Shown here in pieces: positions 22,587-37,077 of a DNA stretch of 40,804 nucleotides. This DNA comes from Chromatiales bacterium (GTDB lineage: Bacteria > Pseudomonadota > Gammaproteobacteria > Thiohalospirales > Thiohalospiraceae), in the NCBI GenBank assembly GCA_026982395.1, contig JALSHD010000182.1, positions 1-40,804 on the forward strand, given 5' to 3'. The notes beneath the pieces were generated by a model that searched no databases, was not told the origin of the DNA, and saw only the letters and a list, made by a program, of their open reading frames with translations. The position numbers were made by a program, and so were the translations under genes. Every line of letters begins with the position of its first letter. Position 1 is the stretch's first letter.

Positions 22587-24488
22587 CTAATCCTCTTTCA
22601 TGGTTGCTGAGTTGTCCGTGCCGACGATCGCGTCCACCTCTTCACCGCTCAGTATCTCTTTTTTCTCCAGCTCGGTTGCCAGTTTGTCCAGCACGGCCCT
22701 GTTTTCGGTGAGAATTTTTTCGGCGCGTTGCTGACCTTCCTCCACCAGCTCCCTGACTTCGCCATCGATGATGCGAGCGGTCTCTTCGCTGTAGTTACGC
22801 TCCTCCTGTCCCTCGACGCCGAGGAAGCTGAGCTGCTGCCGCCTGCCCCAGGTCAGGGGGCCGAGTTTCCTGCTCATGCCGAGCTGGGTGACCATGCTGC
22901 GGGCGATCTCGGTGGCGCGCTCCAGATCGTTGGAAGCACCGCTGGAGACAGTGCCGAAAACCACCTGTTCGGCTACCCGTCCGCCCAGCAGGATGGCCAG
23001 CTGGTCCTTGAGCTGCTGTTCGGTGGAGAGGAATTTCTCCTCCTCCGGCAGCTGCAGGGTGTAGCCCAGGGCTGCCACGCCGCGTGGGATGATGGAGACC
23101 TTGTGTACCGGCTCGCCTGTGGGAACGCTCTTGGCGACCAGGGTGTGGCCCGATTCGTGGAAGGCGACGCGGTGTTTCTCGTCGGCGTTCATTACCCGGC
23201 TCTTCTTTTCCGGGCCGGTGAGGACGCGGTCGATGGCGCCTTCGAAATCGGCCATGGTGACCGCCTCATGTTTGTGACGCACGGCGCGTATGGCTGCCTC
23301 GTTGGCGATGTTGGCCAGATCGGCGCCGACAAATCCGGGGGTGCGCTGGGCGACCACTTTCAGATCCACGTCGTCGGCGAGCTTCATGTTGCGGGTGTGC
23401 AGTTTCAGGATCGCTTCGCGTGCTGCCAGATCCGGTTTGTCCACTACGATCTGGCGGTCGAAACGGCCGGCGCGCAGCAGCGCCTTGTCGAGGATCTCCG
23501 GCCGGTTGGTGGCAGCCAGCACCACGACTCCGACGGAGGGATCGAAGCCGTCCATCTCGGTGAGCAGCTGGTTGAGGGTCTGTTCGCGCTCGTCGTGGCC
23601 ACCCATCACCGGGCCGGCGCCACGTGCCCGGCCGATGGCGTCCAGTTCGTCGATGAAGATGATGCAGGGGGCTTTCTGTCTGGCCTGGTCGAACAGTTCG
23701 CGAACCCGCGCCGCGCCGACGCCGACGAACAGCTCGATGAACTCGGAGCCACTGATGTTGAAAAAGGGCACCCCGGCCTCACCCGCCACGGCGCGCGCCA
23801 ACAGGGTCTTGCCGGTGCCCGGTGGGCCCACCAGCAGAACCCCCTTGGGCATCCGGCCGCCCAGCCGCTGGATGGAGCGTGGGTCCTTGAGAAATTCGAT
23901 GGTCTCACCCAGCTCCTGCTTTGCCTCTTCGGCTCCGGCCACGTCATCGAAAGTGACCTTGATGTCCCCCTCCGGGTGGATGCGGACGCGGTTGCCGATG
24001 CTGAGAAACCCTTTTCCCGCTGTCCCCATCCGTTTGGCCATCCACCCCCAGAGCAGGAACAGCAGGCCGAAGGGGAGCACCCAGTTGAAGAAGAAGTTGC
24101 TCAGCCAGTTGCTGCCGGTGCGTACTCTATACGTCACGCCGTTCTGCTCCAGCTCTTTGGCCAGATCGGTATCCCACAACGGGACTGTAATGAAACGCCG
24201 CGGCTGTTGGGTTTTGGGATCTTTGAGTGTCAGCGTTCCGCTGATCAGCTGTTCGGTAACAACCGCGTCAGCAACCTCTTTTTTCTCTACATGCTGGAGA
24301 AACTGGCTGTACGGGATCTCTTCCTGCCGAGTCTGTTGCACGTCCTGCCAGAGATAGAGAGACGCCAGCAGAAACAGGACATAGGCGAGCAGGGTTATCT
24401 CCGGCCGCTGCCAGAACTTGAGTTCGGGAGGTCTGTTGATATCGATTTTGTCCTTGTTGTTTCCCGTGGAAAAGCTGTTTTTCTGCAT
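22587..24488 (-). CDS. ftsH: ATP-dependent zinc metalloprotease FtsH (accessory paralogue)
   Basis: Membrane-anchored AAA+ protease degrading misfolded or regulatory proteins. The 633-residue protein has two transmembrane helices (about 28-47 and 128-152) around a periplasmic domain, Walker A GPPGTGKT (221-228), Walker [10 protein letters not shown], second region of homology [20 protein letters not shown], zinc site HESGH (444-448; HEAGH in most) and a third ligand in SNDLERAT. The ATG at 24488 follows GGAGAG. Linkage to a trxC-like gene rather than rlmE/folP suggests a second, stress-type copy; such FtsH-thioredoxin pairs occur in transmissible heat-tolerance islands. Base composition looks GC-richer than the flanking genes. 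Confidence 0.93.
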
Positions 24489-24522
24489 TTCTGTCTCTCC
24501 TTGCCGGTGCGGTTCTACAAGC

Positions 24523-24957
24523 TCAGATATGGCTCTGTATCCAGCGCACAATATCCGCGGCAGACATGGCTCCGGGTTGGCGCGCAATCTCTTCTCCGCC
24601 CTTGAAAATCACCAGAGTGGGAATGCTGCGGATGCCAAATTGCCCGGCCAGCACCTGCTCCTGCTCCGTATCGACTTTGGCCAGACGCACGCGGGGTTCC
24701 AGTTCGGCTGCCGCTTGGGCGAAGGCCGGCGCCATCATCTTGCAGGGGCCGCACCACGGCGCCCAGAAATCCACCACCACCGGCAGTTCGTTACGGTTGA
24801 TATGAACAGGAAAGTTGAGACTGGTCAGATCCATTGGACGGGCGGTAAAAAGCGGTTTCTTGCACTTGCCGCAGTTGGGCTGATCTTCAAGCCGCTCTGC
24901 AGGGATTCGATTAACGGCGTTGCAGTGTGGACAGACAATATGGATGGGATTGCTCAT
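24523..24957 (-). CDS. trxC: Thioredoxin 2 (zinc-ribbon thioredoxin TrxC)
   Basis: Cytosolic disulfide reductase. The 144-residue protein has an N-terminal zinc ribbon (CPHC near residue 9 and CGKC near 29) and a thioredoxin fold with the active site WAPWCGPCK, followed by the cis-proline segment RSIPTLVIFKGG. TrxC proteins are linked to oxidative and heat stress. The ATG at 24957 follows GAGGAG. It ends 34 bases before ftsH, so the two form an operon; a heat-shock-like promoter candidate lies just upstream. Confidence 0.95.
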   Translation of the reverse strand: MSNPIHIVCPHCNAVNRIPAERLEDQPNCGKCKKPLFTARPMDLTSLNFPVHINRNELPVVVDFWAPWCGPCKMMAPAFAQAAAELEPRVRLAKVDTEQEQVLAGQFGIRSIPTLVIFKGGEEIARQPGAMSAADIVRWIQSHI

Positions 24958-25260: not shown

Positions 25261-25791
25261 CTAATAATAAAACTGGTTTGAAAGCTCTTTTTTGACAGTG
25301 ACCTGCCATACTTCATCCAGGCCGTGTACTTCGATGGTGGTGTAGTTTCCCTTGGGCAGTTTTACCAGCATGCAGGGATGGGTGATGACGGCGGCGACCA
25401 TGGCATCGGGAGCGGGTCTGTTGAGAACCACATTGAGCAACGCCCTGTTCTGTTGCACGGTGAAGGCCGGTTCTGCCAGTGTAAGCGAGTAGCCTGCGGT
25501 TGGTTGTTGACCCGATGAAATATAGAGGACATGCCAGCGGTTGAAATCGATATTTGGCAGGTGAACGGTTGGTGGCGGCAGCACCGAGCCTTGCAGATGC
25601 CCGATGATTTTTTTCAGCTGCTTCTTGTTGCTGATGAAGACAACCGGCTGCTGATTCGGATCGCTGCATTGAACTGCTGAATCAATTACCTGTGCCGTTG
25701 TGTTTGGTGTGTCGGCAAGATTTGCACCGGGAATGCTGCAGCCTGTCAGCAGCAGGAGAGCCAGTGTCAGGGAGAGCGGTTTGTCAGTCAT
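25261..25791 (-). CDS. PrcB-like lipoprotein (protease complex subunit)
   Basis: A 176-residue lipoprotein: signal MTDKPLSLTLALLLL followed by the lipobox LTGC. The C-terminal half matches the PrcB_C pattern: FNRWHVLYISSGQQPTAGYS, LNVVLNRPAPDAMVAAVITH, then LVKLPKGNYTTIEV. PrcB in Treponema denticola is part of the dentilisin complex with the subtilisin-like PrtP. Here the gene overlaps the end of a lipoprotein subtilase by 8 bases (the ATG at 25791 lies before its stop), so the pair is translationally coupled and probably acts together at the cell surface. Membrane side of the anchor unknown. Confidence 0.8.
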   Translation of the reverse strand: MTDKPLSLTLALLLLTGCSIPGANLADTPNTTAQVIDSAVQCSDPNQQPVVFISNKKQLKKIIGHLQGSVLPPPTVHLPNIDFNRWHVLYISSGQQPTAGYSLTLAEPAFTVQQNRALLNVVLNRPAPDAMVAAVITHPCMLVKLPKGNYTTIEVHGLDEVWQVTVKKELSNQFYY

Positions 25792-28378
25792 CTGGATAGC
25801 GTGAAAATCCGTGTATTTCAGTCTGTTCCACGTTGTTTGTCTGAGCGCGAATAATGATGTCGAAGTTAGAGCCAAAGTCAATGTTGTTCATATCACTATA
25901 GACATTGATTGACTGTAGCCGTTCAATGGTGGGATAGCCGCCACAGGCTTCACCGGGATCACAGATCAGACCGTCATTGTCCAGATCGGTGCCGGCGACA
26001 ATAAAATACTCACCTTCAGGAACAGAGTCGAACTGGAAGCTGTAGCTTCCACTGCTGTTGTCAGCATAAACCATGCGAATGGTTTCCATCGTACCGGGGC
26101 TGACCAGAACCACATAGAGACGGCCAGTGTTTCCCTTTTCCTGACGTTCGCCAACCTGGAGTGTAACAGGAATAGCGAGTGAAGAGGCGGTATCGGTCTC
26201 CAGGGTGATGGTTGCACGATAAAGGCCATCGACCAGACCAGCACGGTTAACTGTGACAGTAAACTCCCCTTCGCTGCCGTCCAGCATTCGGGGGTCGGTT
26301 TCCAGCCAGTCGGCATCATCCGAAACGCTGGTAATGACAAATGCGCCGCCACCAGCATTGCGCGTAGTGAATGTCAGCTGTTTTACAAAGAGGCCAAAAT
26401 TGAGTGATCCGGAGTGATCGACAGCGATAATTGGCGGGAGAGCAATATTGATGTTCTCTACCGCTTTGAGGGCGTTGATCAATCCAAAACCGAAGATATC
26501 GTCTCTTCCCGGAGCGCCGAGATCGGAGGTTAACTTGCCAGCCTGCAGCAGGGTAAAAAATTTGTCCGGATTCAGCTCTGGATCGAGTGATTTCAGTATG
26601 GCGGCGACTCCCGCCACATGAGGTGTTGCCATGGAGGTGCCTTGAGTAAAAGAGTATATGGGCTTCCTTGCACCGGTTGCGTCGTCTGCAAGGGTACTCA
26701 GGATCCCGTCATAATAGCTGTCACCGTCACTGTCTACAGCTGTATTGCCCCCTGGCGCAGCGATATCCACGGAGGGGCCAAAATTGGAGTAGGGTGCTTT
26801 TTGCTGTGCCATTGTGACTGCACTTACGGAAATCACGCTGTCATAGGCTGCCGGGTAGCTGGGAAGATTGGTATTGTCGTTTCCCGCCGCAGCCACGATG
26901 ATGACACCCGCGTTGCGAACGGCATTATATTCAGCCTGTTCCGTCATGGAGAAGCCGGGGCCGCCAAGACTGAGATTGATAATGTCCGCACGTTGTGACG
27001 GGACGGTTCCCGAATCGTTGCTCAAGCCTGCTGCATAGCGTATTCCCTGGATGATGTCGTAAGTAGTACCGCCCCCCCGACCGAGTACGCGTACCGGCAG
27101 GATTCTGGTATTGGTGCCCCATGTGACGCCGGTAACGCCAGTAGAGTTATTTGATTGGGCAGCGATAATTCCGGTGACGTGGGTTCCGTGGAAGGAGCTT
27201 CCGCCGGGCGTGGCATTGTCACCGGGGTCATCCGGGTTGTCATCGATACCATCTCCGTCAGCGGCGACAGAAGGATTGGAAATAAAATCGTAACCGGTAG
27301 AGAGAAGATTGGCTTGCAGGTCAGGGTGGGACATAAACACGCCGGTATCAATTACGGCGACAACCACCGGTTGGCTGCTGGTGTTCGGCAATGCGGTAAC
27401 ATCCCATGCCTGGGGCAGATTAATCAATGGATAGTTCCACTGCTTGGGATAGTGTTGATCGTTGGGAATGGCTGCGGGGTAGCGGATATAATTGAGATCT
27501 GCTGATTCGATATCGGGACGCTTGCGCAGTGCCCTGATTGTCTCGATGGTCTCCTGTTTCAGTTTTTCCTGTGCAATAGCGTCATTGTCAGCCGCCGCCA
27601 GGTTTATCCCCAAAACCTGCCGGGTAAACTGGCGTTCTGTTTCATTTCCCAGACTGAACAGCATGGTGTGACCGGCAGAGCCGCTCTTTTTTACCAGTCC
27701 GGTTGAGGTGGAAAAAATCCGGGAGGTTGAGGCAGCAGCCATTGAATCCCTGAACCGGACAACAATTTCGCCGGGTACAAAGGGGGCATCCGTTTGCAAT
27801 GCGGTAGTGGCAATATTGGCGGGTTGCCCGATAGTGAGAAGGTAGTTCGAAGCCCCCCGTACCGCCCGGATGAACAGATAGTATTCTCCGCTTTCCGGTA
27901 TCTGCACTGTTTCTGTTCCCGCTGTGGCGCTGATGGCCTGGGCCACGGGGCGGGTTTCAGGGGTGATTTCAGCGGTATTGTAGATTTCAATATCAAGATC
28001 TGTCTCATAGGGTTTTGCTGCATCATGGTCACTGATAAACAGGGTAACTGTCTGCCCCTTGGCCAGGGTAGCCTGATAGACATCAGTGTTGTCACCGCGG
28101 GTGGCAAACCTTCCGTTCCCGACTCCTGCGCGGGAGACAAATCCACCCAGCAGAACCGGGTTCAGTAGTGGTTGGGCGGTTGCGGGAGTGTCGTTGGATT
28201 CATAGGGTGCTTCGGTATCGTTGACGTCGTTGTCAACGGCGGCGCCAACAGCTGATGCGATCGTTCCGTTCAGAGTGAAGGTGGGTATGGGATCTCCGGG
28301 CTTGTTGTCACAACCGGAAATTACCAGAACCAGGCTCAGCAAGAGCAGAGTTCCCTTGATTAATCTTGTCAGATTCAT
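25784..28378 (-). CDS. Lipoprotein subtilisin-like serine protease (S8) with PPC-like domain
   Basis: Predicted lipid-anchored protease, 864 residues. Signal ends in the lipobox VISGC (Cys23). Residues about 60-185 form a pre-peptidase C-terminal-like (PPC) module placed unusually at the N-terminus (ESNDTPATAQ to YLLTIGQ). Residues 200-300 resemble a fervidolysin-type propeptide (VPGEIVVRFR). The catalytic domain carries D344 (VIDTG), H397 (FHGTHVTG), oxyanion N500 (AAAGN) and S582 (GTSMATPHVAG), all intact. The C-terminal 220 residues are beta-rich; the last part (about 750-840) looks like a carboxypeptidase-regulatory or pre-albumin-like fold with DLDNDGLICDPGE. No good Shine-Dalgarno precedes the ATG. 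It is coupled to the PrcB-like gene. Confidence 0.93.
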   Translation of the reverse strand: MNLTRLIKGTLLLLSLVLVISGCDNKPGDPIPTFTLNGTIASAVGAAVDNDVNDTEAPYESNDTPATAQPLLNPVLLGGFVSRAGVGNGRFATRGDNTDVYQATLAKGQTVTLFISDHDAAKPYETDLDIEIYNTAEITPETRPVAQAISATAGTETVQIPESGEYYLFIRAVRGASNYLLTIGQPANIATTALQTDAPFVPGEIVVRFRDSMAAASTSRIFSTSTGLVKKSGSAGHTMLFSLGNETERQFTRQVLGINLAAADNDAIAQEKLKQETIETIRALRKRPDIESADLNYIRYPAAIPNDQHYPKQWNYPLINLPQAWDVTALPNTSSQPVVVAVIDTGVFMSHPDLQANLLSTGYDFISNPSVAADGDGIDDNPDDPGDNATPGGSSFHGTHVTGIIAAQSNNSTGVTGVTWGTNTRILPVRVLGRGGGTTYDIIQGIRYAAGLSNDSGTVPSQRADIINLSLGGPGFSMTEQAEYNAVRNAGVIIVAAAGNDNTNLPSYPAAYDSVISVSAVTMAQQKAPYSNFGPSVDIAAPGGNTAVDSDGDSYYDGILSTLADDATGARKPIYSFTQGTSMATPHVAGVAAILKSLDPELNPDKFFTLLQAGKLTSDLGAPGRDDIFGFGLINALKAVENINIALPPIIAVDHSGSLNFGLFVKQLTFTTRNAGGGAFVITSVSDDADWLETDPRMLDGSEGEFTVTVNRAGLVDGLYRATITLETDTASSLAIPVTLQVGERQEKGNTGRLYVVLVSPGTMETIRMVYADNSSGSYSFQFDSVPEGEYFIVAGTDLDNDGLICDPGEACGGYPTIERLQSINVYSDMNNIDFGSNFDIIIRAQTNNVEQTEIHGFSRYPDD

Positions 28379-29033: not shown

Positions 29034-29264
29034 ATGGAGTCTGCGCGTATAGAGTGCGTGACTGGGCGGGAGGGCTGGCGCGAATGGCTGAAAAACGAGC
29101 CATGTCTGCCATCCCGTCAGGATCGCGCTCCGCTATTTCTGCTCATTGAGCAAATCCCACGTAAAAACAGAATATCGTATTATCGCACGAGCATCACGCC
29201 CGGCGGCGGAAGATGTGAGTCGTTCAGGAATGCGCCAATAATAATGGAGTTTTATCATGCGTAA
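29034..29264 (+). CDS. Possible small leader protein, 76 residues, unrecognised
   Basis: The frame begins with ATG after GGGAGAGGGGGCG and ends by overlapping the start of the next gene by 8 bases, as in translational coupling. The protein (MESARIECVTGREGWREWLK at the start) has no signal peptide, membrane segment or motif I recognise, and its composition is not clearly protein-like. It may be a coupled leader or chance. Low confidence. Confidence 0.22.
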   Translation: MESARIECVTGREGWREWLKNEPCLPSRQDRAPLFLLIEQIPRKNRISYYRTSITPGGGRCESFRNAPIIMEFYHA

Positions 29265-32200
29265 TAAATCTGTATCAGGAGTCAAGCCTCGAAAAGCTGT
29301 CAAGGCAGTGGTGGTGGAGCGTTTCCGCAGTGGCCTGGCTCGCTGTGTTCTGCTGCCTCTTGCACTAGCGGCTATTCCGTTTGGTATCAGCCAGGCCGCT
29401 TTTGAGCCGGTGGCTACCGGTCAGTTGGCTGCTGCCGGCAGCAAGCAGGGAGGCGTTTCCTGGGCAGATTTTAATGGTGACGCCTGTCTGGATGCGGCTG
29501 TAAATACAGATGAAGGTACTCTGTTGTATCAGCAGGGCAAGACGGAGGGTGGTTGCAGCGGGAATTTTGAGCACGTACGGACGTTCGGTGATGCGATACC
29601 GGCCCGCTCGGTAGTTTGGGGGGATTTCGATAACGATGGATTAGTTGACCTGGCTGTTAACCACGCTTACCAGATAGTTATATACAGGAACGTTAACGGA
29701 CAGGGTTCCGGATTTGCTCCAGTGGCAGATTTTAATCCTGGAAACTCCGAGGGGATGGCCTGGATTGACCATGATGCAGATGGTGACCTCGACCTGCTGA
29801 TAGAGAATAACGATTTTGGTATGCGTATCTATCTCAATGATGGCGGCATGCTGAGCAGTACAAACTTTACCGATATTCATACCGGTGAAGTGAACGGAGA
29901 GTATCTGGCGGCAACAGATTTTGATGTTGACGGGGACGTGGATTTTTATGTGCGCCGTCCGGGCACAGGGGATAATGATGCCGAGGCCGACCTTTTTGTT
30001 AATAACGGCGGGGTATTCGCCCGCAACACATCCATAAACGAGGAGTCGGTGAACGCTCAGAAAGGGGGAGTTGTATTCTGTGATTTTGACGGAGATGGCG
30101 ACTTCGATCTGGCACGCACCGACGCTGGAACGCTGGGTGTTTTTGAGCAGACAGGGGATTCCAGTGGCGTGTTTGCCGTCAAGCAGACATTTACCGGCAG
30201 TTACGCCGGTGTTGCCTGTGCCGATGTTGACAATGACGGCGATGTAGACCTGTTTTTTACCAGTCGCGGCGCAGGGAACAGCTTGCTGTACCTGAATGAC
30301 GGCAATTTCTCTTTTTCCCAGGATAATCTGAATATTACCGCGTCCGGCGCGGCGGCGGGGGTAGCCTTTGCAGATTACGATCGTGACGGTGACATGGATC
30401 TGCTGGTCAATCAGGATGGTGCCGCGACCGAGTTATGGCGCAATGGGCTAGCTCCTCTAAACTACCTCCAGGTCAGCCTGACCACCGGTGCTCGTGATGC
30501 AGTTGGTGCCACGGCGCGGCTGTATGACTGTGAGGGAACTCCGGTATCTGGTGTACGAGAGATTAATGGTGGCATGGGCCGGGGTAGTCAGGGTGCTCCG
30601 TTTGCCCATTTCGGTGGTATCGACCCATTTGGCATCTATGTAGTCAAAGCCAGATTCCCAGGTGGGCAGGAAGTTCAGCGAGCAGTTGTGCCGGATAGCA
30701 TTCCCGGCTATCAACTGCTGGTAATTGCGGAAGGTGAAGAGAGTGATCTGTCTCGGTGTATGGTCGCTGTCGATAGCGATAATGATGGTCTGACCGATGC
30801 GCAGGAGGCTGAATTGGGTACCGATCCTGGCAACCCGGACAGCGATGGCGATGGCGCCGGCGATGGTGCGGAGGTGGGAGACGATCCGGCTGCTCCGCTG
30901 GATGGTGACGGCGACGGCATCATCGATGCTCTGGACTCAGCCGTTGTTGATACCGACGGTGACGGAGTGATGGACCAGCAGGATCCAGCCAACAGCGATC
31001 CCTGCGTACCGACTGCTGACAACGCCGCCTGTCAGTCGCTCGACAGTGACGGCGATGGTCTGGCCAATGCACGGGAGGCAGAAGTGGGTACCGATCCCGA
31101 CAACCCGGACAGCGATGGAGATGGCGCCAATGACGGTGCGGAGGTGGGAGACGATCCGGCTGCTCCGCTGGATGGTGACGGCGATGGCATCATCGACGCC
31201 CTGGACTCCGCCACTGCGGATGCCGACGGTGACGGGGTGATGGATCAGCAGGATCCGGCCAACAACGATCCCTGTGTCCCCAACAGCGATAACGCCGCCT
31301 GTCAGGGACAGGTCGACAGTGACGGCGATGGTCTGAACGATGCAAGGGATATAGATGATGACAACGATGGTATCCCGGACGTTGCAGAAGGGGATGGCAG
31401 GGTAGACACCGATGCTGACGGTGTTCCCGATAGCCTGGATCTTGACAGCGATAATGACGGACTTTTTGATTTGACTGAGTCCGGTGCAGACGACTCCGGA
31501 CTGGATAGTGATAAAAATGGCCGTATAGATACCGGTTTTGGCGAGAACGGTCTGGCCAACAGTGTTGAGACTTCGGTTGATTCGGGTATTACGGATTACA
31601 ACGGTGATGGCGTACAGGATACCCAGAGAGACAGCGATGGAGACCGGATACCGGATTTTCGTGACATCGATTCAGATAACGACGGCATTTTGGATGTGAC
31701 AGAGGCCGGCTTGACTGATCCGGATCTCAACGGCTTCATTGGTGAGAACATTCCGTCGGTGAACGATAATGGTCTGGCTGAAGGCGCGGGTGTGATGCCG
31801 CCTCCCGATACAGATAAAGACACTGTGCCGGATTACCGGGATCTGGATACCGATAATGATGGGATTCCCGATGTTACAGAGGTAAACCTGCCAGATCCCG
31901 ATAACAATGCTTATGTTGGTACAGGTGTGCCGCCGGTTGTTGATAATCTGGGACGTGCCGAAGAGGCAGCGGTTGCACCTGTTGATACCGATGGCGATGG
32001 TACTCCTGATTACAAAGACCTCGACTCGGACGGTGATGGGAAATCGGATATTACCGAAGGGGGCGGTAGTGATGTCGATGGTGACGGTCGGGTAGATGAT
32101 TTCCGGGATCAGGATGGTGATGGTCTTGATGATTCCGTTTCTCCTCTCACCTCCGGCGGAACGCCATTGGGAGTACCCGACAGTGATAATGACGGGTTGC

Positions 32201-32388
32201 CGGATTATCGCGATATTTCGGCTGCTTCCGGAGATGAGCCCATACTGCAAACCGGCTTGAAAGGCGTTGGTGGTTGTACATTGAATCCAAATGCCGGCTT
32301 TGACCCTGTAATGCCGTTGCTGCTGGCTGTTGCCTTGATGTATCTGTTCAGCTCGAGGCGGCGGAGCAGAACAGAGCGTTCAGAGTAA
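29257..32388 (+). CDS. Secreted VCBS / UnbV / thrombospondin type 3 repeat protein with C-terminal sorting tail
   Basis: Large predicted surface protein, 1043 residues. A long basic N-terminus leads to a signal peptide ending in GISQAA (about residue 48). Residues about 68-385 contain seven FG-GAP/VCBS-type calcium loops (such as DFDNDGLVDLAVN and DVDNDGDVDLFFTS), a likely beta-propeller. Residues about 405-495 resemble the ASPIC/UnbV domain of CRTAC1. Residues about 505-990 are thrombospondin type 3 repeats rich in DxDGDG, including a 90-residue tandem duplication. The end is a tripartite tail: GGCTLNPNAGFDP (from 1005), a hydrophobic segment, and RRRSR. This resembles JDVT-CTERM-like sorting signals, and a CPBP protease is encoded two genes downstream. 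Confidence 0.92.
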   Translation: MRNKSVSGVKPRKAVKAVVVERFRSGLARCVLLPLALAAIPFGISQAAFEPVATGQLAAAGSKQGGVSWADFNGDACLDAAVNTDEGTLLYQQGKTEGGCSGNFEHVRTFGDAIPARSVVWGDFDNDGLVDLAVNHAYQIVIYRNVNGQGSGFAPVADFNPGNSEGMAWIDHDADGDLDLLIENNDFGMRIYLNDGGMLSSTNFTDIHTGEVNGEYLAATDFDVDGDVDFYVRRPGTGDNDAEADLFVNNGGVFARNTSINEESVNAQKGGVVFCDFDGDGDFDLARTDAGTLGVFEQTGDSSGVFAVKQTFTGSYAGVACADVDNDGDVDLFFTSRGAGNSLLYLNDGNFSFSQDNLNITASGAAAGVAFADYDRDGDMDLLVNQDGAATELWRNGLAPLNYLQVSLTTGARDAVGATARLYDCEGTPVSGVREINGGMGRGSQGAPFAHFGGIDPFGIYVVKARFPGGQEVQRAVVPDSIPGYQLLVIAEGEESDLSRCMVAVDSDNDGLTDAQEAELGTDPGNPDSDGDGAGDGAEVGDDPAAPLDGDGDGIIDALDSAVVDTDGDGVMDQQDPANSDPCVPTADNAACQSLDSDGDGLANAREAEVGTDPDNPDSDGDGANDGAEVGDDPAAPLDGDGDGIIDALDSATADADGDGVMDQQDPANNDPCVPNSDNAACQGQVDSDGDGLNDARDIDDDNDGIPDVAEGDGRVDTDADGVPDSLDLDSDNDGLFDLTESGADDSGLDSDKNGRIDTGFGENGLANSVETSVDSGITDYNGDGVQDTQRDSDGDRIPDFRDIDSDNDGILDVTEAGLTDPDLNGFIGENIPSVNDNGLAEGAGVMPPPDTDKDTVPDYRDLDTDNDGIPDVTEVNLPDPDNNAYVGTGVPPVVDNLGRAEEAAVAPVDTDGDGTPDYKDLDSDGDGKSDITEGGGSDVDGDGRVDDFRDQDGDGLDDSVSPLTSGGTPLGVPDSDNDGLPDYRDISAASGDEPILQTGLKGVGGCTLNPNAGFDPVMPLLLAVALMYLFSSRRRSRTERSE
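30772..31314 (+). repeat. Tandem 90-residue repeat inside the thrombospondin 3 region
   Basis: Copy 1 (30772-31041, 270 bases) and copy 2 (31042-31314, 273 bases) encode parallel 90-91 residue units of calcium-binding repeats; a third copy begins at 31315 and diverges. The stretch 30865-30914 is identical to 31135-31184 (50 bases), so the duplication is recent or kept similar by gene conversion. It is coding sequence, in frame. Confidence 0.85.
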
Positions 32389-32422
32389 TGGAAAAAACAA
32401 CATGGATATCAGGAATCGGGTT

Positions 32423-33424
32423 ATGAAAAGTGTAAAATGTACGGCTGCCATGATGATGCTGTGTGGGGCGATGGTTTCAGCCAACGCTGCTTCGGATTTT
32501 ACCAAGCGTTGGTATGGGGGAGCCGGGATCGGAATCTCTGAACTGGAGCCGGATCCCAACGGTACTGCGGTTAGCGTTGACAAGTCCCGCAGTTCGGGCG
32601 GCAAGATTTTTGTTGGTTATGACTTGTCGGAGCGCTTCAGCATTGAAGGCCACTATGCCGATCTGGGTGAGGCCAAAATGGCTCCCCGGGGAGAGGTCGG
32701 CTACAGGGAGTTCGGGCTTGGTGGACTGTATTACCTGTACAAACAGCATCCCGCGCATACCGGCTTTGGCTTTTTTGGCAAGGCGGGACTTGGCAAAATG
32801 GAGAATGACACCGATCTCACATACGAGCGTGTCAATGACTACAGCCTGTTCTATGGAGCTGGTCTGGAGTACGGCTTCAGGAATGGCTTGGCGCTAAGGG
32901 GAGAGATTGAGCTGTATGACAAAGATGCACAGTTTCTCACCATCAGCCTGATGAAGCGTTTTGGCGGGACCAGGGAGGAGCAACCTCAAACTGCGCCCGA
33001 GCCGGAACCAGTCGTGCTTGCTCCCGCTCCGGTTGCAGCCGAGCTGGTACTGGAACTTGAACCCGATCCCCTGAAAATGGCGCCGCTGGGTAAACTGGAG
33101 GTTATCTATTTTCTTACCAACTCGGCTGCGTTGACCGGTGAGGCGCGTGCTAAACTTGACCGAGTGGTCAGTGAGTTGCAGCGCGTTCCTGATGCCCGCG
33201 TCGAGGTGGCCGGTCATACTGACGACCGCGCAACCCGCAGCTATAATTTCAATCTTTCGCAACAGCGCACCCGCGTAGTGATTGATTACCTGACGAAGAA
33301 AGGCATTGCCCTTAAACGTTTGAGGCCTGCCGCTTATGGCGAGGACAAGCCTGCCGCGAGCAACGCAACAGAAGAGGGAAGGAGCCTGAATCGCCGGGTT
33401 GAGTTCAGGGAGCTGAAGCAGTAG
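32423..33424 (+). CDS. OmpA-family outer-membrane protein
   Basis: The 333-residue precursor has a signal peptide (MKSVKCTAAMMMLCGAMVSA, cleavage after NA), an N-terminal 8-strand barrel of the OmpA-like type (WYGGAGIGISELE to FLTISLMKRFGG), a Pro/Glu/Ala-rich hinge (about 178-208), and a C-terminal OmpA domain that binds peptidoglycan (VEVAGHTDDRATRSYNFNLS, RPAAYGEDKPAASNATEEGR, NRRVEF). I chose the ATG at 32423, which follows AGGAA (32411-32415) at 7 bases and gives a standard signal peptide; an ATG at 32402 lacks a ribosome binding site. It lies 34 bases after the VCBS protein and directly before the intramembrane protease. Confidence 0.92.
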   Translation: MKSVKCTAAMMMLCGAMVSANAASDFTKRWYGGAGIGISELEPDPNGTAVSVDKSRSSGGKIFVGYDLSERFSIEGHYADLGEAKMAPRGEVGYREFGLGGLYYLYKQHPAHTGFGFFGKAGLGKMENDTDLTYERVNDYSLFYGAGLEYGFRNGLALRGEIELYDKDAQFLTISLMKRFGGTREEQPQTAPEPEPVVLAPAPVAAELVLELEPDPLKMAPLGKLEVIYFLTNSAALTGEARAKLDRVVSELQRVPDARVEVAGHTDDRATRSYNFNLSQQRTRVVIDYLTKKGIALKRLRPAAYGEDKPAASNATEEGRSLNRRVEFRELKQ

Positions 33425-33441
33425 CAGAGAAATTATCGACG

Positions 33442-33879
33442 CTGTCCCGGCTGCTGCGAGACCGGCAGTTTTATGCCGCAGTAGCCGCGGGTCCGATAGT
33501 GTGGCTGATACTTTATTTTTTGTATCAGCCACAACCTTCCTGGCAACGGCTCATAGATAATAGTGGCTTGTTGCTGTTGCTGTGTTTAGTCTATCCGATA
33601 GTCGAAGAGCTGGCATTCAGGGGAGCCTTGCAGGGCTGGCTGCTTCGTTATCGAGCAGGAAAAAAACAGATCATTGCCGGATTGACCGGCGCCAACATAA
33701 TAACGAGCTGCCTGTTCGTGGCGGCTCATTTGTTCTACCAACTTCCTGTGTGGGCGTTGCTGGTTATTGGGCCTTCGCTGGTTTTTGGCTGGTTCAGGGA
33801 CAGGTATCAGAGTGTTGCCCCTGCTATTCTCCTCCATATCCTATATAATTCAGGCTATTTCCCGCTGTTTTTGACGTAG
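33442..33879 (+). CDS. CPBP-family glutamic intramembrane protease, sorting-tail type (MrtJ-like)
   Basis: Small multi-pass membrane protease, about 145 residues. The CPBP active-site motifs are present: EELAFRG (Glu-Glu-x3-Arg), a histidine in FVAAHLF, and LLHILYN near the end. The order LLRDRQF, GPIVW, YPIVEELAFRGALQGWLLR recalls the protease paired with JDVT-CTERM proteins, as I remember that family. The first ATG/GTG/TTG in frame is GTG 33499, which would cut the first membrane helix in half. The frame is open back to 33403, so I placed the start at CTG 33442; CTG 33451 or 33454, or the GTG, remain possible. It overlaps no gene and lies 13 bases before the next. Confidence 0.8.
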   Translation: MSRLLRDRQFYAAVAAGPIVWLILYFLYQPQPSWQRLIDNSGLLLLLCLVYPIVEELAFRGALQGWLLRYRAGKKQIIAGLTGANIITSCLFVAAHLFYQLPVWALLVIGPSLVFGWFRDRYQSVAPAILLHILYNSGYFPLFLT

Positions 33880-34555: not shown

Positions 34556-34621
34556 TTGTGCTGCGGCTGAGTGGTTACGATATATATTATTTCCGGGTTA
34601 ATGATTGACAAGAGTCACGCT

Positions 34622-36376
34622 ATGACAAAAGACAGGAGATGTCGGTTTTTCTGCATTCCTGAACGAGCTTGCTGGTCGGCCGTTGTTTTTGTTCTGGCGC
34701 TGGCGAGCACAATCTCTCTCGCTGCCGAACGCACTGTTCCCGGCGATTACAAGACTATTCAGGCAGCCATTGATGCCAGCCAGCCGGGTGATACGGTGCT
34801 GGTTGAGCCGGGGACCTATCGTGAAACCATTGCTCTGCGCAGCAATATTGTCATTCGCGGCCGGGAGACTGCACGGACACTGCTTGAGGGGGAAGGGGAG
34901 AATCCTGTTATCACCGCGGATGGGATTACCGATGCGCGGATCAGTAATTTTACCTTTGTGGATGCTTCCATTGGAGTGAGAGTCTCGGGTAATGCAGATG
35001 TCATCATCGCCGGTAACGTTTTTGATGTTGGAGGTAGCGGAACAGCCATAATGGTACTGGACCTTGCTGCCGCAGCGATCAGCAACAATACTTTTTATGG
35101 CAGTGCTATTGCCATCAATCGAGGGCACGATGGTGTCACCATCCGCAACAATATGTTTTACGACAATGGTACTGCCATTGCGCCTGCAAGTCTGACTGCA
35201 AACATCAGTTACAACGGCTTTCTCAACAACGATGAGGATGGACCGGTCGGTACCAATGCCATGCTCAACAAATATTTTCGCTTCATCAACATCTCCAGAA
35301 GGGATTTTCATCTGCGTTCCTCCTCTGAAGGGATTAATAAAGGAGATGTGAATGATACCGACATAATTGATGGTACCCGGGCGGATATGGGCGCCTACGG
35401 TGGTCCTTATGCTGACGCAACTCCCTTTCCAGTGTCTGGGCTCAGTGTCGAGAGTGATGGTGCGGATTCTGTCACTGTAAAATGGTCAGGCAATTTTTCC
35501 TACCTGACTGCGGGTTATAAACTGCATTACGGTATCGATGAGAATTTTCAGGGGAGCGGAGCATCTGAAGGGCCCTCGCCAATTGACGTTGGCAAGATTA
35601 CCAGTTACAAGCTAAACGGCCTTGCATTATTCCCTCCGGCCGGGTTGAGTGCTCCGGTGCTCGGGAACCCGGCGCCATCCAATCAGGCACTGCAACTCAA
35701 CTGGACTCCAGTCAGCGGAGCTGCCGGTTACAAGGTGTATTACGGAGTTGATTCCGTTGACGAACATGATATTGATGTCGGCAACAGCACATCGTACCGT
35801 ATTACCGGTTTGCAGAACGAGGTTGCCTATCGAGCGGCTGTTTCGGCCTACAGCCGGACAGAGTATTACTTCGCGGTTTCCGTCTATGACAGCACCGGTA
35901 ACCGGAATGAGAGTGTGCTTGCTGATGAAAGCAAGATCAGGGCTGGCGTGGGTCCCGTGGTGGAGAGCCCGCTTTCCAGCGAAGTAACCGCTTTTCCTGA
36001 AGCTATCGAACCCTATCCCAACCTTGCTGATGAGGGGTGTTTTATTGCAACTGCTGCATTTGGTTATTATTCCTCCCCCCAGGTACAACTGCTGCGCGAC
36101 TTTCGGGATCGCTATCTCTTGACCCATTCGCCCGGCAAGGCGTTTGTTGACTGGTACTACACTTATGGGCCAGCGGCAGCCCAATGGCTTGATTCCCACC
36201 CCGGGGGCAAGCCGGTGGTAAGGGTAGCCCTGTTTCCACTGATAGCTCTTGCTGCTTTACTGCTCAATGGCTTTTTTGTTTACCTGGCGTTGCTAATGAT
36301 GCTTTGCGGAATATTGGTTACAATGGGCGCGCTGTTTTTACGCAGAAACCCGTACTCCATCCTGAGGGAAGAATGA
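34622..36376 (+). CDS. Beta-helix / fibronectin type III protein with CFI-box C-terminus
   Basis: Exported or surface protein, 584 residues. A long signal region (MTKDRRCRFFCIPERACWSA to ISLAAE) leads to a right-handed parallel beta-helix (about 30-245; DYKTIQAAIDASQPGDTVLV is a typical start), then two fibronectin type III modules (about 255-345 and 350-445; WTPVSGAAGYKVYYG). The C-terminus is a CFI-box (GCFIATAAFG from residue 472, then VQLLRDFRDRYLL), followed by two to three hydrophobic helices. Starts at 34601 (ATG) or 34571 (GTG) are possible; I chose 34622, preceded by AAGAG (34610-34614). The stop overlaps the barrel gene by four bases. Confidence 0.85.
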   Translation: MTKDRRCRFFCIPERACWSAVVFVLALASTISLAAERTVPGDYKTIQAAIDASQPGDTVLVEPGTYRETIALRSNIVIRGRETARTLLEGEGENPVITADGITDARISNFTFVDASIGVRVSGNADVIIAGNVFDVGGSGTAIMVLDLAAAAISNNTFYGSAIAINRGHDGVTIRNNMFYDNGTAIAPASLTANISYNGFLNNDEDGPVGTNAMLNKYFRFINISRRDFHLRSSSEGINKGDVNDTDIIDGTRADMGAYGGPYADATPFPVSGLSVESDGADSVTVKWSGNFSYLTAGYKLHYGIDENFQGSGASEGPSPIDVGKITSYKLNGLALFPPAGLSAPVLGNPAPSNQALQLNWTPVSGAAGYKVYYGVDSVDEHDIDVGNSTSYRITGLQNEVAYRAAVSAYSRTEYYFAVSVYDSTGNRNESVLADESKIRAGVGPVVESPLSSEVTAFPEAIEPYPNLADEGCFIATAAFGYYSSPQVQLLRDFRDRYLLTHSPGKAFVDWYYTYGPAAAQWLDSHPGGKPVVRVALFPLIALAALLLNGFFVYLALLMMLCGILVTMGALFLRRNPYSILREE

Positions 36377-37077
36377 AAACGACTATTGCACCGGATTCAG
36401 AGCAGACAGACAACCGGGGTGGACGGGAAGTATCGGTGCACAGCGGGAGAGTTCTGTTGCTGCTACTGATGCTGTTCCCGCTGATCAGTCTGGCCTCCGG
36501 GATTCCACAGGATCCGCCCCGTTGGTCGCTGGAGATCAAGGGCGGCAGCTTTTTCCCAAAAGAGGATAACTGGAAAGCCTACTATGGTGATGACAAGACC
36601 GGTCAGTTCAGTGGAGTGATTGCATACAAGTTTGTTCGCCAGTTTGAGGTTGGTATTGACGGTTCCTACATAAAAGATGAGGGAAAAGGGCTGGCACCAC
36701 AGCAGGAACAGATTACAGGTAACGTAACCCTTGAGCTGTATCCTCTGCAACTGTTTGCCCTGGTGCGGGGTGTTTTCAGTGAGAATCAATGGCTGGTTCC
36801 CTACCTCGGTGCCGGATGGACCCGCATCTATTACGAGCAGGATATTCATGGGCAGGAAAAGCGGCGTGGTGCTGCGACAGGAGCCCACATTCGTGGTGGA
36901 CTACAGCTGTTGCTCGACAATATCGACAGGAGTACCGCTTGGGGTTTTTATGAGAACTTTGGTGTGAATAACAGCTATTTTTTTCTGGAAGTGCAGCGCA
37001 GCAGTGTTGAAGTCGGTTCGGATCCTGTCCAGCTGGGTGGTACCAGCTATCAGGCCGGGCTGTTGTTTGAGTTTTAA
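36373..37077 (+). CDS. Outer-membrane beta-barrel protein (MXAN_2562-like)
   Basis: The 234-residue precursor has an extended N-terminus with a hydrophobic signal (VLLLLLMLFPLISLASG, residues about 27-43). A mature barrel follows with alternating aromatic and polar residues (WSLEIKGGSFFPKEDNWKAY, GTSYQAGLLFEF), ending in a C-terminal phenylalanine as recognised by BAM. The pattern WSLEIKGG..F.P...NWK and FSENQWLVPYLGAGWTRIYY recalls the MXAN_2562 family, from memory. The ATG overlaps the stop of the CFI-box gene (ATGA) and follows GAGGGAAG. Likely a partner in display or export of the cassette's proteins, by inference. Confidence 0.8.
   Translation: MKTTIAPDSEQTDNRGGREVSVHSGRVLLLLLMLFPLISLASGIPQDPPRWSLEIKGGSFFPKEDNWKAYYGDDKTGQFSGVIAYKFVRQFEVGIDGSYIKDEGKGLAPQQEQITGNVTLELYPLQLFALVRGVFSENQWLVPYLGAGWTRIYYEQDIHGQEKRRGAATGAHIRGGLQLLLDNIDRSTAWGFYENFGVNNSYFFLEVQRSSVEVGSDPVQLGGTSYQAGLLFEF

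Follow-up and report, generated by a model that had tools for sequence, protein, structure and literature searches.

A family S8 subtilase encoded with a PrcB-type lipoprotein in Gammaproteobacteria

The window, a stretch of 40,804 nucleotides, carries on its minus strand a gene for a subtilase and, directly 3′ of it and head to tail, a gene for a small lipoprotein with a PrcB_C domain. Its features at this locus are the following.

25784..28378, minus strand: S8 subtilase of 864 amino acids, predicted lipoprotein (Cys23), with the triad D344/H397/S582 (open reading frame, Pfam and sequence motifs)
27824..28291, minus strand: PPC-like beta domain of the subtilase, residues about 30-185 (PPC matched in 6 of 18 relatives; borders from predicted secondary structure)
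27479..27787, minus strand: predicted prodomain, Fervidolysin_NPro-like, residues about 198-300 (16.8 bits, below the cut-off of 21)
26444..27472, minus strand: catalytic domain, residues 303-645 (Pfam and structure comparison)
25859..26434, minus strand: two C-terminal beta domains, residues about 649-840 (5 of 18 relatives have a BACON-like first domain; this segment served as probe A5 for the S8 family)
25784..25791, minus strand: 8-nt overlap ATGACTGA, holding the subtilase stop and the partner start
25261..25791, minus strand: PrcB_C lipoprotein partner of 176 amino acids (Cys18), with conserved cysteines C42 and C140 (open reading frame, Pfam and alignment)
25354..25530, minus strand: PrcB_C domain, partner residues 88-146, with invariant G94, G100, Y101, P126, P139 and C140

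Both reading frames lie where the original prediction had placed them, and the pair is confirmed as real. The subtilase matches Peptidase_S8 of Pfam with 194.3 bits, which puts it in family S8; its motifs VIDTG (D344), FHGTH (H397) and GTSMA (S582) bear out the predicted intact triad, the roles of these residues being those we take over from subtilisin. The partner matches PrcB_C (PF14343) with 37.7 bits against a gathering cut-off of 24, so the proposed HMM search upholds its assignment. Its frame is open further 5′, giving a 206-residue entry in the list of open reading frames; we place the start at the ATG at 25791, because the signal peptide begins there and the choice yields the 8-nt overlap, in agreement with the overlap first proposed. 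A scan for promoters and terminators gave no clear excess over shuffled sequence (6 against 4.2; 3 against 4.6).

Read from the sequence, the signal peptides end in the lipoboxes VISGC23 (subtilase) and LLTGC18 (partner), which marks both proteins as bacterial lipoproteins; the partner's LPAM_1 score in Pfam is 18.2 bits, under the cut-off of 20. At position +2 the subtilase has Asp and the partner Ser. In E. coli, Asp at this position retains lipoproteins in the inner membrane, and by that rule the two precursors would be bound for different membranes; the difference would be irrelevant for a protease that releases itself. The idea of shared lipid anchors calls for qualification: the subtilase lipid is attached ahead of the predicted prodomain, so that maturation would remove it, the +2 residues differ, and at least four linked two-cysteine relatives have partners without a lipobox cysteine.

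An AlphaFold model of the subtilase (mean pLDDT 76.7) and 18 aligned proteins, some of them cut by contig ends, suggest the domain order lipid anchor, PPC-like domain, prodomain, catalytic domain, BACON-like domain and last beta domain. Pfam matches neither PPC nor BACON in the window subtilase itself; a fervidolysin-type prodomain is matched in 9 of the 18 aligned relatives, and the last beta domain follows the consensus GTDxDNDGxICDxGEACGGYPT. In structure, the nearest relatives of the catalytic domain are extracellular gammaproteobacterial subtilases such as Pro21717 (5yl7; Z 46.9 over 324 residues, rmsd 2.4, 45% identity), AprV2, BprV and StmPr1. Beyond this shared domain, the window enzyme has a lipoprotein anchor, one N-terminal and two C-terminal beta domains, and a PrcB-type partner encoded with it.

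The partner is modelled as mostly beta (pLDDT 84.6, pTM 0.75). Foldseek returned nothing significant for this model in the PDB (best E 0.19) or BFVD (best E 0.017). The best structural comparison, between residues 37-170 and a NigD-like Bacteroides lipoprotein (3nqi; Z 4.8, 97 residues, rmsd 3.5, 12% identity, by VIA-align), is too weak to claim a shared fold for the modelled protein; nor do we propose that its fold is new. Eight positions are invariant in an alignment of 18 PrcB_C proteins linked to an S8 gene: C42, G94, G100, Y101, L105, P126, P139 and C140.

The pair is not a peculiarity of one genome, a possibility rejected by its presence across the genus, the class sample and named genomes. 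It is found in all eight searched genomes of the genus, the window's own included. The latter holds a second S8-PrcB pair on contig C175 (about 25.1-28.0 kb; loci L096 and L212), whose S8 protein is 38-41% identical to the window subtilase, and a third S8 gene (contig C40) beside neither PrcB_C match. The class sample has 64 PrcB_C matches, in 59 of 369 genomes. We viewed 63 of these with up to about 5 kb on either side (three end less than 0.5 kb upstream at a contig end): 22 have an S8 gene, each time as the immediate upstream neighbour on the same strand. Four of the 22 come from the window's genus, two of them from its own genome; the 64th match, outside this set, is also linked, for 23 of 64. 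The association in the class sample is far beyond chance, and by hand tally the linked pairs with both cysteines span 13 family-level groups.

Among named genomes, which overlap the class sample in part, 19 of 40 PrcB_C loci have an S8 gene, always in the same slot; the other 21, including those of Salinisphaera and Solimonas, have none within the flanks examined. Among the linked loci are those of metagenome-assembled genomes named Thioalkalivibrio, Oleispira, Hahella, Desulfurivibrio and Desulfatitalea; another belongs to a named strain, Marinobacter daqiaonensis CGMCC 1.9167, in which the two genes share 4 nt. The records of L105-L108 carry titles of Gammaproteobacteria MAGs, and the isolate names suggest that they come from hydrothermal vents. 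In the phylum to which L117 belongs, taken to be Desulfobacterota, PrcB_C occurs in 8 of 247 genomes and is linked within 1.5 kb in two of the eight (L222 and L234). The original prediction had called for a search for a conserved pair across Gammaproteobacteria, and had named a partner failing the HMM or a pair confined to this genome as findings against it; the partner passes, and the pair recurs in many gammaproteobacterial families and in Desulfobacterota.

When the earliest possible start codon is taken, the two genes overlap in 20 of 37 pairs and are 0-10 nt apart in another 10; with the first ATG, 14 pairs overlap and another seven lie within 10 nt. Besides S8 and PrcB, no gene family is common to more than three of 34 linked loci. 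The other neighbours vary, and the pair is therefore a self-contained two-gene module.

Linkage varies with the kind of PrcB_C protein. For classing by cysteines, the 63 class matches less one without an open reading frame and three cut by contig ends leave 59. Proteins with both C42 and C140 are linked to S8 in 21 of 33 cases; those without both share the same PF14343 domain, yet 25 of the 26 evaluated have no adjacent S8 gene (Fisher p 1.5e-6 for 21/33 against 1/26, uncorrected for kinship). S8 linkage thus follows a two-cysteine PrcB_C subfamily, 12 of whose 33 members are unlinked. Around 16 unlinked loci (14 with both cysteines, and the unclassed L110 and L128), inspection by eye found no recurring protease among the nearest genes. 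In eight loci, mostly of Salinisphaera (L124, L125, L131 and L135-L139), a PrcB_C lipoprotein with both cysteines has no S8 gene in the flanks examined; in L124 and L131 an adenylylsulfate-kinase-like gene, recognised by eye, lies upstream of PrcB_C.

Among subtilases whose 5′ end is intact, the lipobox pattern occurs in 25 of 27 linked and 10 of 11 unlinked proteins. Of the partners, 27 of 37 have it; some of the remaining ten are misses of the pattern or of the start codon. Linked two-cysteine partners without the lipobox cysteine are those of genomes G001, G088, G214 and G316, and the partner in G146, the one linked pair without both cysteines, shows no lipobox.

From the side of the protease, probe A5 gave 54 matches in 44 of the 369 class-sample genomes. 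The 45 strongest divide into 24 with PrcB directly downstream and 21 without, each of the latter having at least 671 bases of contig left; among the nine weaker matches, none of the seven examined has an adjacent PrcB. Since 21 of 45 strong matches do without it, the partner is not an obligate chaperone of this S8 family. We placed 58 S8 proteins on a quick tree (the 45 strongest class matches and 13 named loci chosen as linked), where linkage requires 11 label changes; shuffled labels need 17.2 on average, and none of 500 shuffles came as low. Well-supported branches force only two changes. Pairing is widespread and has probably been lost or gained several times. Divergence of S8 and PrcB is correlated over 34 pairs (r 0.40, with none of 2000 permutations as high), and r falls to 0.04 among 542 distant comparisons, so the signal is carried by close relatives.

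The clustering on the tree means that part of the linkage is inheritance, and one could read all of it in this way, as an old gene order kept by descent with no functional tie between the two proteins. We find this quite improbable: all linked loci keep the same slot amid differing neighbours, two phyla have the pair, and one genome has it twice, with S8 proteins 38-41% identical. Leftover gene order as the sole cause is likewise unlikely given that no third family is common to more than three of the 34 linked loci.

Divergently upstream of the pair, three genes follow one another at 29257-33879 on the plus strand of the window; they encode a JDVT-CTERM protein carrying FG-GAP and TSP3 repeats, an OmpA-like protein and the intramembrane protease MrtJ. 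The available part of PMC11980579 describes MrtJ and a single JDVT-CTERM protein as a two-gene neighbourhood; in the window, the OmpA-like gene lies between the two. In G001, G004 and G006, homologues of the OmpA and FG-GAP genes lie no more than about 4 kb upstream of the subtilase; in G003 there is an FG-GAP homologue about 9 kb from the pair. The contigs of G002, G005 and G007 end too soon to show such neighbours. None were found near the pair in G054, the sole linked genome from outside the genus so compared. By hand tally, 9 of 23 pair-bearing class-sample genomes have MrtJ above cut-off, on the contig of the pair only in the window genome; we therefore rejected these three genes as part of the module. 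The surface-protein cassette of the original prediction does adjoin the pair and recurs within the genus, but it was not seen near the pair in G054 and nothing makes its products substrates of the protease.

On the other side, G001, G002 and G004 have thioredoxin and FtsH-like homologues downstream of the pair, and G005 has the thioredoxin homologue; neither was found in the stretches of G003 and G006. Since the downstream genes vary among its members, the neighbourhood is not fixed even within the genus. At 22587-24957 on the minus strand of the window, the end of a thioredoxin-2-like gene overlaps the longest reading of an FtsH-like frame (assigned by eye) on the same strand. Further along, at 34571-37077 on the plus strand, a CFI-box-CTERM protein with beta-helix and fn3 domains adjoins an outer membrane beta-barrel protein of the MXAN_2562 family.

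The original prediction had likened the pair to dentilisin of Treponema denticola. We made this comparison through NCBIfam models and the descriptions given in the accessible part of PMC8167434. There the gene order is prcB-prcA-prtP; PrcB interacts with PrtP, which is undetected without it, and maturation strips PrtP of its acylated N-terminus, whereas PrcB stays lipidated. The likeness to the window lies in an S8 protease and a PrcB-domain lipoprotein made from one locus, and in a protease lipid N-terminal to the catalytic part. The differences are that the window genes run protease then partner, the reverse order, and overlap; that no third gene recurs beside the pair; and that the protease is of another S8 type. 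The partner scores 40.1 bits with the denti_PrcB equivalog (NF033596), whose cut-off is 125, and the subtilase 127.1 bits with denti_PrtP (NF033595), whose cut-off is 300, over its catalytic part only; a mycosin model outscores the latter on the same protein, with 144.1 bits. By these scores, the gene order and the lack of a recurring third gene beside the pair, the window pair is not dentilisin proper.

The same evidence bears on whether the pair belongs to a dentilisin complex in the full sense, whose third, PrcA-like subunit would be encoded elsewhere. Homology of the domain speaks for it, denti_PrcB of NCBIfam matching 22 of 25 relatives at E up to 0.01, as does the denti_PrtP match over the catalytic domain. 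The missed equivalog cut-offs, the higher mycosin score, the reversed order and the lack of a recurring third gene beside the pair in 34 linked loci make such a complex highly improbable. What stands of the dentilisin-like pair is the PrcB_C domain, the triad, the overlap and the conservation, which supports the initial interpretation in part: a conserved S8-PrcB pair, but one apart from dentilisin proper. The same source describes the PrcB lipoprotein, in the part available, as without homologues outside oral Treponema; our domain-level matches, together with a PrcB-domain gene noted in Kosmotoga (PMC5674127, likewise in the part available), contradict this.

How might the two proteins work together? 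The subtilase and its small, usually lipid-anchored partner would be made by coupled translation and both exported, the subtilase folding with its own prodomain. Removal of the prodomain is established for the subtilase family; if it proceeds here as in other subtilases, self-cleavage near residue 302 would part the catalytic portion, residues 303-864, from the N-terminal lipid. The partner would then bind the mature protease and, as has been proposed for PrcB and PrtP, keep it stable and attached to the envelope. That the partner retains or stabilises the subtilase once propeptide cleavage frees it from its own lipid is a proposal in which we place moderate confidence.

Its support comes from the constant slot and order in 23 of 64 class matches and 19 of 40 named loci, the overlaps and short gaps, the lipoboxes in most linked subtilases and partners, and the prodomain-like segment encoded 5′ of the catalytic domain. 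The predicted anatomy fits the logic of T. denticola, a self-freeing protease made with an anchored partner, where PrtP depends on PrcB and loses its lipid while PrcB keeps its own (PMC8167434, in the part available). The four linked partners without a lipobox cysteine argue against a pure tether. Against tethering and stabilisation alike stand the 21 strong and seven weaker S8 matches without PrcB, the 12 unlinked two-cysteine proteins and the weak co-divergence, which vanishes among distant pairs.

Some of these points would also suit a protease-inhibitor cassette, in which the PrcB-type protein would act as an inhibitor or gatekeeper, encoded together with the subtilase and restraining it in the cell's own envelope. 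Inhibitor genes adjoin the protease gene in the staphopain/staphostatin and protealysin/emfourin systems. The order, protease then small overlapping partner, agrees with this, as do the conserved Gly/Tyr and Pro/Cys motifs in a mostly beta protein, and an S8 family so often without its partner (21/45) is easier to reconcile with a modulator than with a chaperone. The partner matches no known inhibitor family in Pfam and nothing significantly in the PDB, which excludes nothing; the studied relative, PrcB, is needed for its protease, not opposed to it, in the available part of PMC8167434. We consider an inhibitor unlikely and retain the stabiliser or tether as our preferred reading.

A PrcB-type/subtilase pair recurs in gammaproteobacteria and some sulfate-reducing bacteria, and in the literature searched, limited to open-licence papers, we found no report of such a pair outside treponemes. 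Tentatively, the two-cysteine PrcB proteins may form a distinct class of subtilase partners, tethers for a self-released protease or inhibitors, within a portable two-gene module across Gammaproteobacteria and Desulfobacterota; the PrcB of dentilisin would then be one spirochete offshoot and not an invention of oral treponemes. The split between two-cysteine proteins (21/33 linked to S8) and the others (1/26) would sharpen the label PrcB, whose name implies a protease complex. The accessible text of PMC8167434 describes as unexplained the route by which the periodontal protease needs PrcB for its detection. With a PrcB domain beside a different subtilase in other bacteria, including Marinobacter daqiaonensis, the role of PrcB would become addressable in a non-pathogen.
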